64,000 nt of DNA from an uncultured Dehalococcoidia bacterium. Its GTDB lineage: Bacteria > Chloroflexota > Dehalococcoidia > Lucifugimonadales > GCA-2712585. Location: contig OY282371.1 in the NCBI GenBank assembly GCA_958295715.1, positions 434,001 through 498,000 of the forward strand. Reading direction: 5' to 3'. Positions within the stretch are counted from its first letter, which is position 1; every line of letters begins with the position of its first letter. Below, piece after piece: positions 41,599 to 47,097 of this stretch. The notes below the pieces were generated by a model. That model searched no databases. It had not been told where the DNA came from and was given only the letters and a program-made list of their open reading frames with translations. The translations under genes were made by a program, and so were the position numbers.

Positions 41599-41910
41599 CT
41601 AGACCTGCGCGGTCTCTTTGGCCCTGGTCTTTACGGCGAAGTCGAAGCCCAAGGCCCTGGCGATGCGCAGCACGGTGGCGAAGCCGGGCTTGGCGTCTTC
41701 GGACAGGGCGTCGTAGAGGGCCTTGCGGGTGATGCCGGCGTCTTTGGCCACGCGAGTCATGTTGACCTTCCGGGCCTTGGCGATGCTTCGCAGGGCGGAG
41801 CGTATCAAACGCCCGTCGCCGTCATCCTCGGCTACGGAGGCTTCAAGGAATTTGCGGGCGGCTTCATGGGTGGGCAGATAAGGCTTCCATTCAGTATAGG
41901 TCTCGGGCAT
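41599..41910 (-). CDS. HTH antitoxin of the addiction-module antidote family, no toxin partner
   Basis: A 103-residue protein. The C-terminal helix-turn-helix is RVAKDAGITRKALYDALSEDAKPGFATVLRIARALG (about 53-88), typical of HigA-like antidotes of the TIGR02684 type. The N-terminal part contains EAARKFLEASVAEDDGDGRLIRSALRSIAKARKV. The usual HigB-like toxin would lie immediately upstream, but that space holds only a promoter and operator. It is probably an orphan autoregulated repressor. Confidence 0.82.
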   Translation of the reverse strand: MPETYTEWKPYLPTHEAARKFLEASVAEDDGDGRLIRSALRSIAKARKVNMTRVAKDAGITRKALYDALSEDAKPGFATVLRIARALGFDFAVKTRAKETAQV

Positions 41911-42310: not shown

Positions 42311-42337
42311 GACCCCCCATGCGGGGGTCTTGTTTTA
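42311..42337 (+). terminator. Rho-independent terminator after tatA
   Basis: GACCCCC (42311-42317), loop, GGGGGTC (42323-42329), then TTGTTTTA. It overlaps the end of tatC by a few bases and may work in both directions. Confidence 0.75.
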
Positions 42338-43072
42338 TGCGGCCGGGGCGGGGCGGCGGCCCCGGGCGGCCAGCTTGGACAGCCAGATGCCGGCCTCGTA
42401 CAGGACTATGAGGGGGCCGGCGACCAGGGCCTGGTTGATGGGGTCGAAGGTGGGGGTTATCAACGCTCCCAACACGAAGGCGACCACAATCCAGTGCCGC
42501 CGCCACCTGCTGAACCCCCGGGGCGTGACGACGCCCAGCTTGGCGATGATGAACATAACCACCGGTGTCTCGAAGACCACGCCCATCCAGAACAGCAGCA
42601 TGGCCACCAGGTTCACGTAGTTGCCCACCCGTATCGTCGGCTCGGCGATGCCGCCGCCGAAGTTTACGAGGAAGTTAATCGCCGGCGGTATCAGCACGTA
42701 GTAGCCGAAGGCGGCCCCGGCCAGGAAGGACAGGAGGGCGCCCGGCAGGAAGCCGTAGAGGTATCGCTTCTCCCTGGGGGTCAGGCCGGGGGCGACGAAG
42801 AGGAGTATCTGGTATAGGAGGATGGGCATGGCTAGGACGACGCCGGATATGAGGGAGACCTTCATCATTACCCCGAACATCTCGGTGACTTCAATGAAGA
42901 CCAGGCGCCCGGGGACCTGGGTGAGGGAGTCGGCGGGCAGGAGCAGGAACTCTATGATTCGCCTGTGAAAGACGAAGCATGGAATGGTGGTGAGGAGGAC
43001 GGCCGCCACCGAGATGGTTAGCCTCTTGCGGAGCTCGTCCAGGTGGCCTCGAAAGGGCATGGTCTGGTTCAT
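42335..43072 (-). CDS. tatC: Sec-independent protein translocase TatC
   Basis: The Tat signal-receptor subunit, 245 residues and six helices. It starts MPFRGHLDELRKRLTIS (the HL.ELRxR motif) and contains VAPGLTPREKRYLYGFLPGALLSFLAGAAFGYYVLIPPAINFL. It overlaps the tatB-like gene by four bases. Confidence 0.95.
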   Translation of the reverse strand: MNQTMPFRGHLDELRKRLTISVAAVLLTTIPCFVFHRRIIEFLLLPADSLTQVPGRLVFIEVTEMFGVMMKVSLISGVVLAMPILLYQILLFVAPGLTPREKRYLYGFLPGALLSFLAGAAFGYYVLIPPAINFLVNFGGGIAEPTIRVGNYVNLVAMLLFWMGVVFETPVVMFIIAKLGVVTPRGFSRWRRHWIVVAFVLGALITPTFDPINQALVAGPLIVLYEAGIWLSKLAARGRRPAPAA

Positions 43073-43275
43073 TTTGGCTTGTCCCGCGGCGGCGGGCCGT
43101 CCGGGTCGTCGTCATCCTCAACCATCCGGGTGAACTGGCCGGTGGCGTTTCGCAGCTCCCTCACCATTTTGCCGAGGCCCTTGGCGGTGGAGATGAGCCG
43201 GGTGGGGCCGAGGACGAGGAAGGCGACCAGCAGGATGACCAGGGCTTCCAGGCTGCCGACGCCGAAGAGGTTCAA
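43069..43275 (-). CDS. TatB/TatA-like translocase subunit
   Basis: A 68-residue protein starting at TTG 43275 (LNLFGVGSLEALVILLVAFLVLGP). The membrane helix is followed by the hinge LGPTRLISTAKGLGKMVRELRN and an acidic tail MVEDDDDPDGPPPRDKPK. The TTG overlaps the stop of the upstream fusion gene (TTGA). The hinge LGPTRL is more TatB-like than the FGAGRLP of the other copy. A longer frame upstream is shadow. Confidence 0.82.
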   Translation of the reverse strand: MNLFGVGSLEALVILLVAFLVLGPTRLISTAKGLGKMVRELRNATGQFTRMVEDDDDPDGPPPRDKPK

Positions 43276-45104
43276 GGGGCGGTCTCCGGCGTGGACGGGT
43301 GGGCGCGGCACGGGTCGGGAAGCCGGAGGCTTTGAGTGTCGTAGCCGAGTTGGCCCAGGAGGTCGGCGAGGGCGCAGAGGGGGAGTCCGACCACGTTGGC
43401 GCGGCACCCCTCCACCTCGGCTCCTGAATGAAAGGGTTCGTCCTGGAGGCCGTAGCCCCCGGCCTTGTCCAGAGCCGCGCCGGATGCCACGTAGCGGTCG
43501 ATTTCCAGGTCTGAGCAGGGGGGCAGTGTCACGGCGGTCTCGCGGGAGCCGGTCACGGAGGCCCCGTCGTTGGGGTCTATCACGGCGACGCCGGTGATGA
43601 CCGTGTGCCGCCTGCCTCGGAGTCGCTTCAGCATGTCCACGGCCTCGGCTGGGTTCTTGGGTTTGCCGAGGGGGACGCCGTCGCAGACGACCAGGGTGTC
43701 GGCGCCGACGATGGGGGAGCCGGGCGGGGGGTTGGGGAGTCGCGCGGCCACGGCCTGAGCCTTGGCCAGGGCCAGGCGGCGAACGGTGTCTTGAGGGGAG
43801 TCGCCGGCCACGGTTTCGGGGATGTTGGGCGGCGCGACTTTGAGGGGCGGGCCTAGAGATTCCATGAGGTCGCGGCGGCGCGGCGACGAGGAGGCCAGGA
43901 TGAGTCCCTCCACGGCGCGGCGGGGTCGCAGCGTGGCGACGCACTCCACGTGGTGAGTCTGGGGGAACATGTCTATGGGCTGGACGCTTTCCAGGTGGAA
44001 GGCCCTTTGGCATAGGACCTTCAGGTCTCTGGCGAGGGTGGCCGGGTCGCAGGACACGTAGACGACCTTGGCGGGCCTCAGCCGGTCCAGGGCCTTCAGA
44101 ACCGAGGGGTGGCATCCCTTGCGCGGCGGGTCCAGAATCACGCCGTGGGGTTGTTCGTCCAGTTGGGCCAGCGCGTCCTCCGTTCTGCCCTGCATAAACT
44201 CCACTTTGGGGTCGCCCGACGCGTTGTCCCGGGCGTCCTCCACGGCGGCGGGTGACTCCTCGATGGCGATTATCCTGCCGGCGCGGGGAGCCAGGAGGAG
44301 GGCGAAGGTTCCAACTCCCGCGTATGCGTCGACGATGAGTTCAGAGCCGGACAGCCCCAGGGCGGCGCCGACCAGTTCCACCAAATTGTCCATCTGCCTT
44401 ACGTTGACCTGGAAGAAGGACGGGGAGGCGACGCGGAACCGGCGGCCTCGCAGGGACTCTACGTAGCGCTTTTGGCCGGTGGGGATGGGAACGGCGGGGT
44501 TGGTCAGGGGCGGCTGGACGAGGAAGTCGCCGGTGTTGACGCCGTACCGCACGGATAGCTGGGTGGTCTCGGCGCACCGGCCTTGGAGTTGGGCCAGTAT
44601 GCCGTTGACGCCGGGATGCATGAGCATACAGTTGTCGATAGGGACCATCTGCCGGCTTTCGCGGTTGACGAAGCCGAGGGAGCCGCCGGGGCCGATGGTG
44701 AAGCGGGCGTGGTTCCGGTATCCGTAACGGTCCGGGGAGGGGAGGGTGGGGGCGACGGGGGCTTGGCTGAACCCGCCCACCCGCTCCAAGGCGTCGACAA
44801 CGGCGTCCCGCTTCATGCCGAGTTGGGCGTTGTAGTCCACGTGCTGCCACTGGCAGCCGGTGCAGGGGCCGAAGTAGGGGCACGGAGCCGAGGCGCGGTG
44901 GGGCGATGGGGTGATGACCTCAACCACCCTGGCGGCCAGACGCCGGCGGCGCTCGCCCACAACCTCGGCTATGACCTCCTCGCCGGGGATGCCGCCGGCG
45001 ACGAAGATGGGGCGGCCGTCGACGCGGGCCATGGCTTCGCCGAGCCTGCCCCACGAGTCGAGGCGCAGGCGCAGCTTTTGTCCTACGAGGCTGGATTTGT
45101 TCAA
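43272..45104 (-). CDS. Fusion: RumA/TrmA-type RNA uracil-5-methyltransferase + Maf-type nucleotide pyrophosphatase
   Basis: One 610-residue frame carries two enzymes. Residues 5-60 are a TRAM-like domain. Cys75, Cys81, Cys84 and Cys159 are the likely [4Fe-4S] ligands. The methyltransferase core has VDAYAGVGTFALLLA, ILDPPRKG (324-330) and the catalytic YVSCDPATLARDL (Cys352). At about 400 it passes directly into a Maf domain: LILASSSPRRRDLM (401-414), IVGADTLVVCDGVPLGKP, AGGYGLQDEPF. Maf proteins hydrolyse non-canonical or modified NTPs. The junction corresponds to about base 43904. The N-terminal half should act on rRNA or tRNA. Confidence 0.88.
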   Translation of the reverse strand: MNKSSLVGQKLRLRLDSWGRLGEAMARVDGRPIFVAGGIPGEEVIAEVVGERRRRLAARVVEVITPSPHRASAPCPYFGPCTGCQWQHVDYNAQLGMKRDAVVDALERVGGFSQAPVAPTLPSPDRYGYRNHARFTIGPGGSLGFVNRESRQMVPIDNCMLMHPGVNGILAQLQGRCAETTQLSVRYGVNTGDFLVQPPLTNPAVPIPTGQKRYVESLRGRRFRVASPSFFQVNVRQMDNLVELVGAALGLSGSELIVDAYAGVGTFALLLAPRAGRIIAIEESPAAVEDARDNASGDPKVEFMQGRTEDALAQLDEQPHGVILDPPRKGCHPSVLKALDRLRPAKVVYVSCDPATLARDLKVLCQRAFHLESVQPIDMFPQTHHVECVATLRPRRAVEGLILASSSPRRRDLMESLGPPLKVAPPNIPETVAGDSPQDTVRRLALAKAQAVAARLPNPPPGSPIVGADTLVVCDGVPLGKPKNPAEAVDMLKRLRGRRHTVITGVAVIDPNDGASVTGSRETAVTLPPCSDLEIDRYVASGAALDKAGGYGLQDEPFHSGAEVEGCRANVVGLPLCALADLLGQLGYDTQSLRLPDPCRAHPSTPETAP

Positions 45105-45204: not shown

Positions 45205-47097
45205 TTGGGAAGCCCTGCAAGTTGCGATAGCAGAGGCGAACATGCAGAATGGCTGTTAGGGGAAAGAAGAAATGCGGGAGAGAGTGCAAAGATTAAGAAG
45301 ATAGTATGGGTTCTAGTAGGTCTATTGAGTCTGACTATACTTGTAGGTTGTGGGTCAGACACTGTGATTCCGCCTACGCCAGCGCCGGCGCCAACGGCAA
45401 GTCCAACGGCGGCGGCGACCGCAACCCCGGCGGCAACACCGTCTCCAACGGCAAGTCCAACGGCTACCCCAAGACCGACCGCGACGCGGAGACCGACACC
45501 TAGCCCCACGGCAACGCCAACACCGTCTCCAACCGCAAGTCCTACGGCTACCCCAAGACCGACCGCTACGATGACGCCGACACCTATTCCGACACCAGCC
45601 GCGACTTCGACGCCTACTCCTACTCCGAGACCGGCTCCTACCGCAGCGCCGACGCCAACCGCAAGTCCTACGGCTACCCCAACCCCAAGACCGTCCCCCA
45701 GCCCCACGGCAACGCCGGCGCCAACACCTACCGCGACTCCGGCGCCAACCGCAACGCCTGCTCCCGAAAAGATTAAGGTAACTCAGGAGGTGTGGGATTG
45801 TTTCAGTGACTTTATAGCGGATCCTTCTAAGAGACCTGAGGACGACCTCAGTCACACGGGTTGCGCAGGTTGGGAAGACTCCACCATAGTTAAGTGGAAC
45901 CAGTCCAGGGTTATTAAGGTCTTCAGGGTGGGCATCGCTTCTTACGTAGAGAAGTTTGATGAAGAACTAAAGGCGTTACGGCCTCTATTGAATCTAGAAT
46001 TTGAGTTTGTAAGGACTGAAGAAGAGGCTGATTTCAGAGCTTACGTGGGAGTAACGAAAGAACATTCTAAATTCATTGACTTAGATTGTATCGACGCTTG
46101 GGGATGCGCTACCTGGGATAGGACTGATGAGGACGAAGTCACTGAAGCCGAAATAGCCATATGGATTAGGAAGCCCACTTCACAGGAGAATGCCTTAGGC
46201 TCGTGGGAAGCAAACTTAAGGACGACTATAAGGCATGAGATATTACATGTTTTAGTCCCCATGAGGCACAGCACCGAGCCCACTAGCCTTATGAATACCC
46301 TAGATGGGGTGTACCCTCCTACTTTCGGTAGGTTGGATGAGGAAGTAATAAGGCTGCATTCGAATTTCCTAGTGAAGCCGGGCATGAGTTTGGAAGAGGT
46401 GCGAGACCTGATAGTCATAGTGGAAGACACTACCGAACCCACTACCTACGAGATATTCCTAGAGGTCTACAACACCCTTAAGGAAGAGGATTCGGTGAAG
46501 TTCTCCTTCTCAGGGGAAGAACAGTACGTGAATACAAGCATCAATAGGTGCGAGAGTAGACCCATAGGACTTGATGGAGACGCCACCTTACATCTAGGGA
46601 ACTTCGACGCTTATGATCCTGGTTACTACGCTTTACAGACTAAGGACTTAGACTTCTACGCTCAGTGGGAAAAGGACCCTGACCCTCAGTGGACCACTTA
46701 CATTAAGACTAAGGACTCAGATTCTTGGGCCGTAGGGGACTGGGAGGACTTCTACAGGACTAGTGACTTCGTTCCGTGGAGAGCTGATCCTTTGACCTTA
46801 GCTAGTAGCTTGGTGGCCTTTTACAAAGAGGCGAACATCGAGATAGTGGAAGACGAGGAAGGAAACTTGAGGATAGACTTCTCTAACTTGAAGAGAAGGA
46901 CTTGGAGTTCTTGGTACTCGAACATCTTCTTAGAAGGCCGCCTAGTAGTGAATTCCGAGACTTACCAAATTCAAGAACTCTCAATGGAATTCGACTTTAT
47001 AGGGGCTTCTTCTAGGTACTGTGTGCAAAGGTTGGATTGGGGAATAGAGACTTGGGACTGGGTTTACGGGTTGCCCTTAACCCTGCCGGAGTTGTAG
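45205..47097 (+). CDS. Lipoprotein with long Thr/Pro-rich linker and metzincin-like metalloprotease motif
   Basis: In the frame from TTG 45205, a signal peptide IKKIVWVLVGLLSLTILVGC ends at lipobox Cys49. About 130 residues of Thr-Pro-Ala-Ser repeats follow (nt 45367-45768), then a folded domain. That domain has RHEILHVLVPMRH (His344, Glu345, His348, His355) followed by STEPTSLMNTL, resembling the HExxH...H and Met-turn of matrixin-like zinc proteases, with one residue more than the canonical spacing. The true start is uncertain: ATT 45292 gives a textbook signal peptide, and a well-placed ATG at 45272 is in another frame. Codon use (TTA, CTA, AGG, ATA) differs from neighbouring genes and suggests transfer. 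Confidence 0.7.
   Translation: MGSPASCDSRGEHAEWLLGERRNAGESAKIKKIVWVLVGLLSLTILVGCGSDTVIPPTPAPAPTASPTAAATATPAATPSPTASPTATPRPTATRRPTPSPTATPTPSPTASPTATPRPTATMTPTPIPTPAATSTPTPTPRPAPTAAPTPTASPTATPTPRPSPSPTATPAPTPTATPAPTATPAPEKIKVTQEVWDCFSDFIADPSKRPEDDLSHTGCAGWEDSTIVKWNQSRVIKVFRVGIASYVEKFDEELKALRPLLNLEFEFVRTEEEADFRAYVGVTKEHSKFIDLDCIDAWGCATWDRTDEDEVTEAEIAIWIRKPTSQENALGSWEANLRTTIRHEILHVLVPMRHSTEPTSLMNTLDGVYPPTFGRLDEEVIRLHSNFLVKPGMSLEEVRDLIVIVEDTTEPTTYEIFLEVYNTLKEEDSVKFSFSGEEQYVNTSINRCESRPIGLDGDATLHLGNFDAYDPGYYALQTKDLDFYAQWEKDPDPQWTTYIKTKDSDSWAVGDWEDFYRTSDFVPWRADPLTLASSLVAFYKEANIEIVEDEEGNLRIDFSNLKRRTWSSWYSNIFLEGRLVVNSETYQIQELSMEFDFIGASSRYCVQRLDWGIETWDWVYGLPLTLPEL

Follow-up and report, generated by a model that had tools for sequence, protein, structure and literature searches.

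A fused rumA-maf gene and its surroundings

The window, which is the whole stretch of 64,000 nucleotides that was analysed, comes from a SAR202-type Dehalococcoidia bacterium (Chloroflexota), and on its minus strand a single uninterrupted frame encodes an intact [4Fe-4S] RlmD/RumA-type m5U methyltransferase that continues into an equally intact YhdE-type Maf pyrophosphatase (Table 1). The fused protein gave 305.3 bits with the rumA profile NCBIfam TIGR00479 (cut-off 183.55) and, over residues 401-585, 174.6 bits with the Maf profile Pfam PF02545 (cut-off 27); the sequence GGGAG was found directly 5′ of the TTG start. An initial annotation of this DNA had described an intact RumA-type enzyme running into an intact Maf domain, and the 610-residue frame and both profile scores bore out this description. 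The cysteine numbering that it had given (C75, C81, C84, C159 and C352) proved to be exact, and the junction lay near position 43904, where it had been placed, with neither stop codon nor frameshift in the frame.

Table 1. Features of the fused rumA-maf gene and the adjoining tat genes
Feature	Position	Strand	Remarks
Fused rumA-maf gene	43272..45104	minus	610 aa; TTG start; TGA stop at 43272-43274
RumA/RlmD-type m5U RNA methyltransferase half, residues 1-394	43923..45104	minus	TIGR00479; model matches residues 5-396
C75, C81, C84 of predicted [4Fe-4S] site	44853..44882	minus	Kept in 63/63 scoreable fused rows
C159, predicted fourth cluster ligand	44628..44630	minus	
C352, predicted nucleophile, motif SCDPATL	44049..44051	minus	Cys in 64/64 fused and 59/59 tandem rows
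E387, conserved general-base Glu position	43944-43946	minus	Glu in 64/64 fused and 59/59 tandem rows
Linker RRAVEG, residues 395-400	43905..43922	minus	About 6 residues
Maf half, residues 401-585, YhdE subfamily	43350..43904	minus	PF02545; model matches YhdE 4p0e
Maf active-site span: R409, R410, E430, K448, D469 (catalytic), T470, K481, Q554	43443..43880	minus	Numbering follows PMC3899018
Candidate metal site, C-terminal in Maf half: C567, C577, C599, H602	43299..43406	minus	Putative ligands
tatA-like gene	43069..43275	minus	TTG start overlaps fused stop (TTGA); assigned by homology and tatC adjacency, no Pfam match
tatC	42335..43072	minus	ATG overlaps tatA stop (ATGA); PF00902 219.4 bits, TIGR00945

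The search for a separate maf or rumA that the initial annotation had proposed found none elsewhere in the host genome (2.40 Mb, estimated completeness 96.6%); the fused gene is its sole maf and its sole rumA/trmA-family gene, and it encodes the only recognised m5U-RNA synthase and the only Maf of that genome. A second route to m5U through TrmFO was considered and rejected, the sole weak match in the host genome, of 20 bits, being an unrelated NAD/FAD-binding N-terminus; no TrmFO was found in the 60 genomes searched, and seven control genomes did match. An artefact of assembly or annotation was ruled out, with virtually no probability left to it, because no fewer than 21 family-level groups contain independent fused assemblies, single-contig genomes among them. 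At the junction, an ATG was present in just 6 of 68 fused loci, a GTG was frequent, in part as a Val codon within the Maf motif, and on reading the sequence the junction GTG of the window was seen to lack a preceding Shine-Dalgarno-like sequence; separate translation of a free Maf from the fused gene appears unlikely.

The fused gene, tatA and tatC form a tight operon (42335-45104) with four-base TTGA and ATGA overlaps, an arrangement that is order-wide and not found beyond the order. Among 39 family representatives, tatA and tatC lay downstream of the rumA-maf pair in 26, all of them from the window's order, and a divergent lipoyl synthase-like gene was often present upstream (14 of 39); in representatives of other orders the pair was retained and the tat genes were not adjacent. 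Two other genes of the vicinity are recorded here. Beside the fused gene and on the opposite strand (45205-47097, plus), a putative lipoprotein is encoded in which long Pro/Thr/Ala-rich repeats are followed by a domain with a HEILH zinc-protease-like motif, and at 41599-41910 on the minus strand there is a gene for a small protein resembling a HigA-type addiction-module antidote.

Predicted structure, active-site residues and a C-terminal Cys/His pattern

A high-confidence structure was predicted for the fused protein (mean pLDDT 89.3, pTM 0.85; 12 sequences). In this model, spRlmCD (5xj2) and E. coli RumA (1uwv) matched residues 5-396 with Z scores of 41.9 and 39.1, respectively, and residues 396-591 gave Z 23.8 with YhdE (4p0e) and Z 23.4 with the human ASMTL Maf domain (2p5x); among the structure matches listed there was no solved chain covering both halves.

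Residue conservation was scored over 64 fused and 59 tandem rows. On the methyltransferase side, the four cluster cysteines, the nucleophilic Cys with its Glu and the Gln in FFQVN were retained, except for a single C-to-S change and a truncated row. On the Maf side, the Ser, the two Arg, the Lys, the catalytic Asp and the second Lys were retained across both sets of rows, the metal-binding Glu was E in 118 of 123 rows with rare E/D/N changes, and the R-T-Q signature was found across the rows with T replaced by S in 10 of them. The signature R409-T470-Q554 of the window Maf is that of the YhdE subfamily, as against the W-Q-E of YceF, and the catalytic D469, the metal-binding E430 and the triphosphate-binding R410, K448 and K481 are all present. 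To judge from these residues, the two halves would be independent, working active sites in one bifunctional protein.

The Mafs of Chloroflexota, fused or not, carry in their tails a further pattern, G-C-Y-x-N-V-V-G-L-P-x-C ... C-x2-C (loci L142-L306), whose version in the window is C567, C577, C599 and H602 (Cys3-His). Some families have G-C-Y-C-N-V-V-G-L-P ... C-x2-C instead, with one Cys shifted and the total still four, and the whole ligand set is absent in a few lineages (L146, L268 and L074). The four-ligand pattern was absent from most of the Mafs of other phyla that were examined and from the solved Mafs compared; several Anaerolineae-type Chloroflexota Mafs have C-x5-6-C in its place, and one Coriobacteriia Maf has CxxC. 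Because the ligands are gained or lost jointly and one cysteine shifts its position, the pattern suggests a metal or Fe-S site.

Distribution and origin of the fusion

The arrangement of the two genes was surveyed in 60 genomes, including the window's own, which were mostly one per family of its order. rumA and maf formed one frame in 22 genomes and stood in tandem on one strand in 18, while they were 1.7 kb apart in one genome and far apart in three; seven genomes carried rumA without maf, two carried maf without rumA (one of them at a contig end), and seven carried neither. The co-occurrence of the two genes (44/7/1/7, Fisher p 7e-5) was given no independent weight, because neighbouring genes are lost as a unit and the test makes no correction for relatedness. 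The same fusion, which the initial annotation had proposed to seek in relatives, was present in two further genomes of the genus (G001 and G002) and, over all loci fetched, in 21 family-level groups of the class; additional fused frames came from an even sample of 393 class genomes. Two separate adjacent genes, which it had envisaged as the possible state of all relatives, are thus widespread but not universal, and since the adjacent pair is about as common as the fusion, the operon is the older and more general unit.

The named relatives are Dehalococcoidia and SAR202 metagenome assemblies. One fused record labelled Acidobacteria (L070, PBML01000036.1) was firmly placed inside Dehalococcoidia by the RumA tree; it is probably a mislabelled assembly. 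Outside the class, the tandem rumA-maf pair was found in the Chloroflexota family groups f163, f140, f153, f130 and f154, and none of the pairs inspected there was fused. No maf lay near rumA in any of 63 control loci (L079-L141, flanks of up to 6 kb, some shortened by contig ends), which were mostly from Cyanobacteria, Bacteroidota, Bacillota and others, with a few Chloroflexota.

The fused state requires no fewer than 10 changes on a FastTree tree built from 148 RumA sequences, where well-supported branches force 4 of them; the corresponding minimum on an IQ-TREE tree built from 75 RumA+Maf concatenations is 9, with 6 forced in this way. On both trees, gain and loss of the fusion are indistinguishable. 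With this number of changes, the general unit is the tandem operon, which has repeatedly fused or split in Dehalococcoidia; its fusion came late, recurred and is reversible. Many tandem pairs overlap via ATGA or share a frame with one intervening stop. In the fused proteins, the methyltransferase end ECVATL leads into the Maf start LILASSSPRR, and the linkers, 7 to 37 residues long when counted between domain boundaries, vary among groups in both length and sequence and are not conserved. A tandem, translationally coupled pair, old in Chloroflexota, would have become fused by losing the stop between rumA and maf, and such a loss would have occurred, or been reversed, many times. In four pairs (L212, L213, L228 and L229, from f106 and f91), both genes are in the same frame with a sole TAG or TAA between them, followed directly by ATG or TTG; these pairs appear to be a single base change short of fusion, or else freshly split.

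A neutral origin would account for much of this pattern: rumA and maf would happen to lie side by side within a compact housekeeping operon with translational coupling, in which in-frame stops come and go, and the two enzymes would work independently. The repeated changes of the fused state, the variable linkers and the pairs that overlap or differ by one in-frame stop are all as expected of such an origin, and so are the seven genomes that retain rumA without maf and the inclusion of tatA and tatC, two genes with no obvious tie to RNA methylation, in the order-wide block. It fits less well, however, with the retention of the pair, in the absence of tat neighbours, both in further orders and beyond the class, or with the absence of maf from the vicinity of rumA in the 63 control loci; decay of one domain would also be expected in some fusions, and no decayed domain was found among the scoreable fused rows. 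We consider a neutral origin a serious candidate, though on balance unlikely.

Function of the two halves and comparison with known systems

There are two proposals for the cellular role of Maf enzymes, control of cell division and removal of modified nucleotides. In the fused protein, the N-terminal half is predicted to be an RNA m5U methyltransferase of the [4Fe-4S] type that depends on SAM and belongs to the RlmD/RlmCD family, and its target would probably be 23S rRNA, at U1939 and perhaps U747. Because no other m5U-RNA synthase was recognised in the genome, U54 of tRNA is possibly an additional target; TrmA or TrmFO is responsible for m5U54 of tRNA, and RlmD for m5U1939, in the majority of characterised bacteria (PMC7226160). 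The C-terminal half is predicted to be a YhdE-type Maf pyrophosphatase on pyrimidine triphosphates, m5UTP among them. Mafs with the R-T-Q signature (YhdE) cleave dTTP, UTP, CTP, pseudo-UTP, m5CTP and m5UTP, the Km of this subfamily being lower for modified bases, and the W-Q-E subfamily cleaves m7GTP (PMC3899018).

Our main reading, with a probability of about 0.6, is a bifunctional enzyme whose halves are kept together by co-expression, and the fact that the pair outlasts the tat block, being retained outside the order where no tat genes are adjacent, was counted in its favour. The methyltransferase half would write m5U into RNA, while the Maf half would act on free triphosphates. Decay of the methylated RNA would give m5UMP (or m5UDP), from which kinases would form m5UTP; RNA polymerase can misincorporate m5UTP, and Maf would convert it to m5UMP before the polymerase could use it. 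The fusion would keep both halves at equal dosage, and m5UTP clearance would be the likeliest reason for it. Such a cycle of decay, rephosphorylation, misincorporation and Maf cleavage has been drawn for Mafs generally (PMC3899018). Direct channelling between the halves is unlikely, because the methyltransferase works within RNA and Maf takes free triphosphates.

The initial annotation had suggested a functional pairing in which Maf destroys the free modified nucleotide released by RNA turnover. The latter step has to be corrected, since Maf needs triphosphates and m5UMP or m5UDP must first reach m5UTP. The cleaning of m5U by Maf was retained in part: m5UTP is among the substrates of the subfamily, but its removal would be one of several duties, alongside dTTP, UTP, CTP, pseudo-UTP and m5CTP. 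As for the pairing, the functional link is plausible, and it is strengthened by the phylum-wide tandem, the repeated fusion, the preserved active sites and the signature of the m5UTP-cleaving subfamily.

Removal of m5UTP as the reason for the pairing, taken by itself, is a tentative proposal that falls somewhat short of even odds. YhdE Mafs cleave dTTP and UTP, which are canonical, and overexpression in E. coli raised dTMP and UMP (PMC3899018), so the substrate of relevance may be another than m5UTP. Moreover, 7 of the 60 genomes have rumA without maf, so the methyltransferase can do without Maf, and the frequent splitting of the fusion means that the physical link is dispensable. The rumA-maf pairing is a prediction of the published cycle (PMC3899018), yet it is also attainable by chance fusion in a compact operon. 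A more elaborate proposal, that of a write-and-clean enzyme in which the only m5U-RNA synthase bears an m5UTP-destroying domain whose Cys4 (here Cys3-His) metal or Fe-S site adds to or controls its activity, seems improbable.

Control of growth would offer a different rationale, in which Maf, as part of one chain with the rRNA methyltransferase, ties its cleavage of dTTP and UTP to ribosome maturation; ribosome assembly would thereby be linked with nucleotide supply or with division arrest, and m5U would be incidental. YhdE-type Mafs cleave dTTP and UTP and block division when overexpressed (PMC3899018), and RlmD-type enzymes work on rRNA, which is in line with this idea; however, no regulatory feature was found, and it is left unexplained why the tandem partner is an m5U methyltransferase, the product base of which is a Maf substrate. 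We regard such control as very improbable.

A Maf that is paired with the maker of the matching base, in an operon found phylum-wide and fused several times, provides comparative evidence for house-cleaning, and the fused protein is a ready-made construct for testing it. The repeated joining in Dehalococcoidia suggests that RNA uridine methylation and the destruction of pyrimidine triphosphates belong together.

Compared with the 23S rRNA m5U methyltransferases RlmD/RumA of E. coli and RlmCD of Streptococcus pneumoniae and B. subtilis, the window methyltransferase shares the TIGR00479 profile, the fold (residues 5-396) and the catalytic Cys and Glu, and it has the four cluster cysteines of RumA; unlike in these enzymes, its last residues continue into a Maf domain. 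With YhdE and B. subtilis Maf (BSU28050), which are pyrimidine and m5UTP pyrophosphatases, the window Maf shares R-T-Q, the catalytic Asp, Lys, Arg and Glu, and the fold; it differs from these two in being the C-terminal half of a larger protein, and from solved Mafs in having a candidate four-ligand Cys/His site. The principle of linking Maf with a methyltransferase is already known: Tchigvintsev and co-workers pointed to the fusion of Maf with a methyltransferase in ASMTL and to an archaeal maf beside a methyltransferase gene, and suggested a functional relationship (PMC3899018, 2013). A RumA-Maf fusion, with an m5U RNA methyltransferase as the partner, was not found in the open-access papers searched. 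Like human ASMTL and the archaeal maf, the window Maf is joined to, or in tandem relatives encoded beside, a methyltransferase; in ASMTL, however, Maf is N-terminal and its ASMT-like partner C-terminal, whereas in the window the order is reversed and the methyltransferase belongs to another family, one acting on m5U in RNA, whose product base is itself a Maf substrate. With a house-cleaning pairing of this kind, what was suggested for ASMTL and archaea (PMC3899018) would come to include a defined RNA modification.
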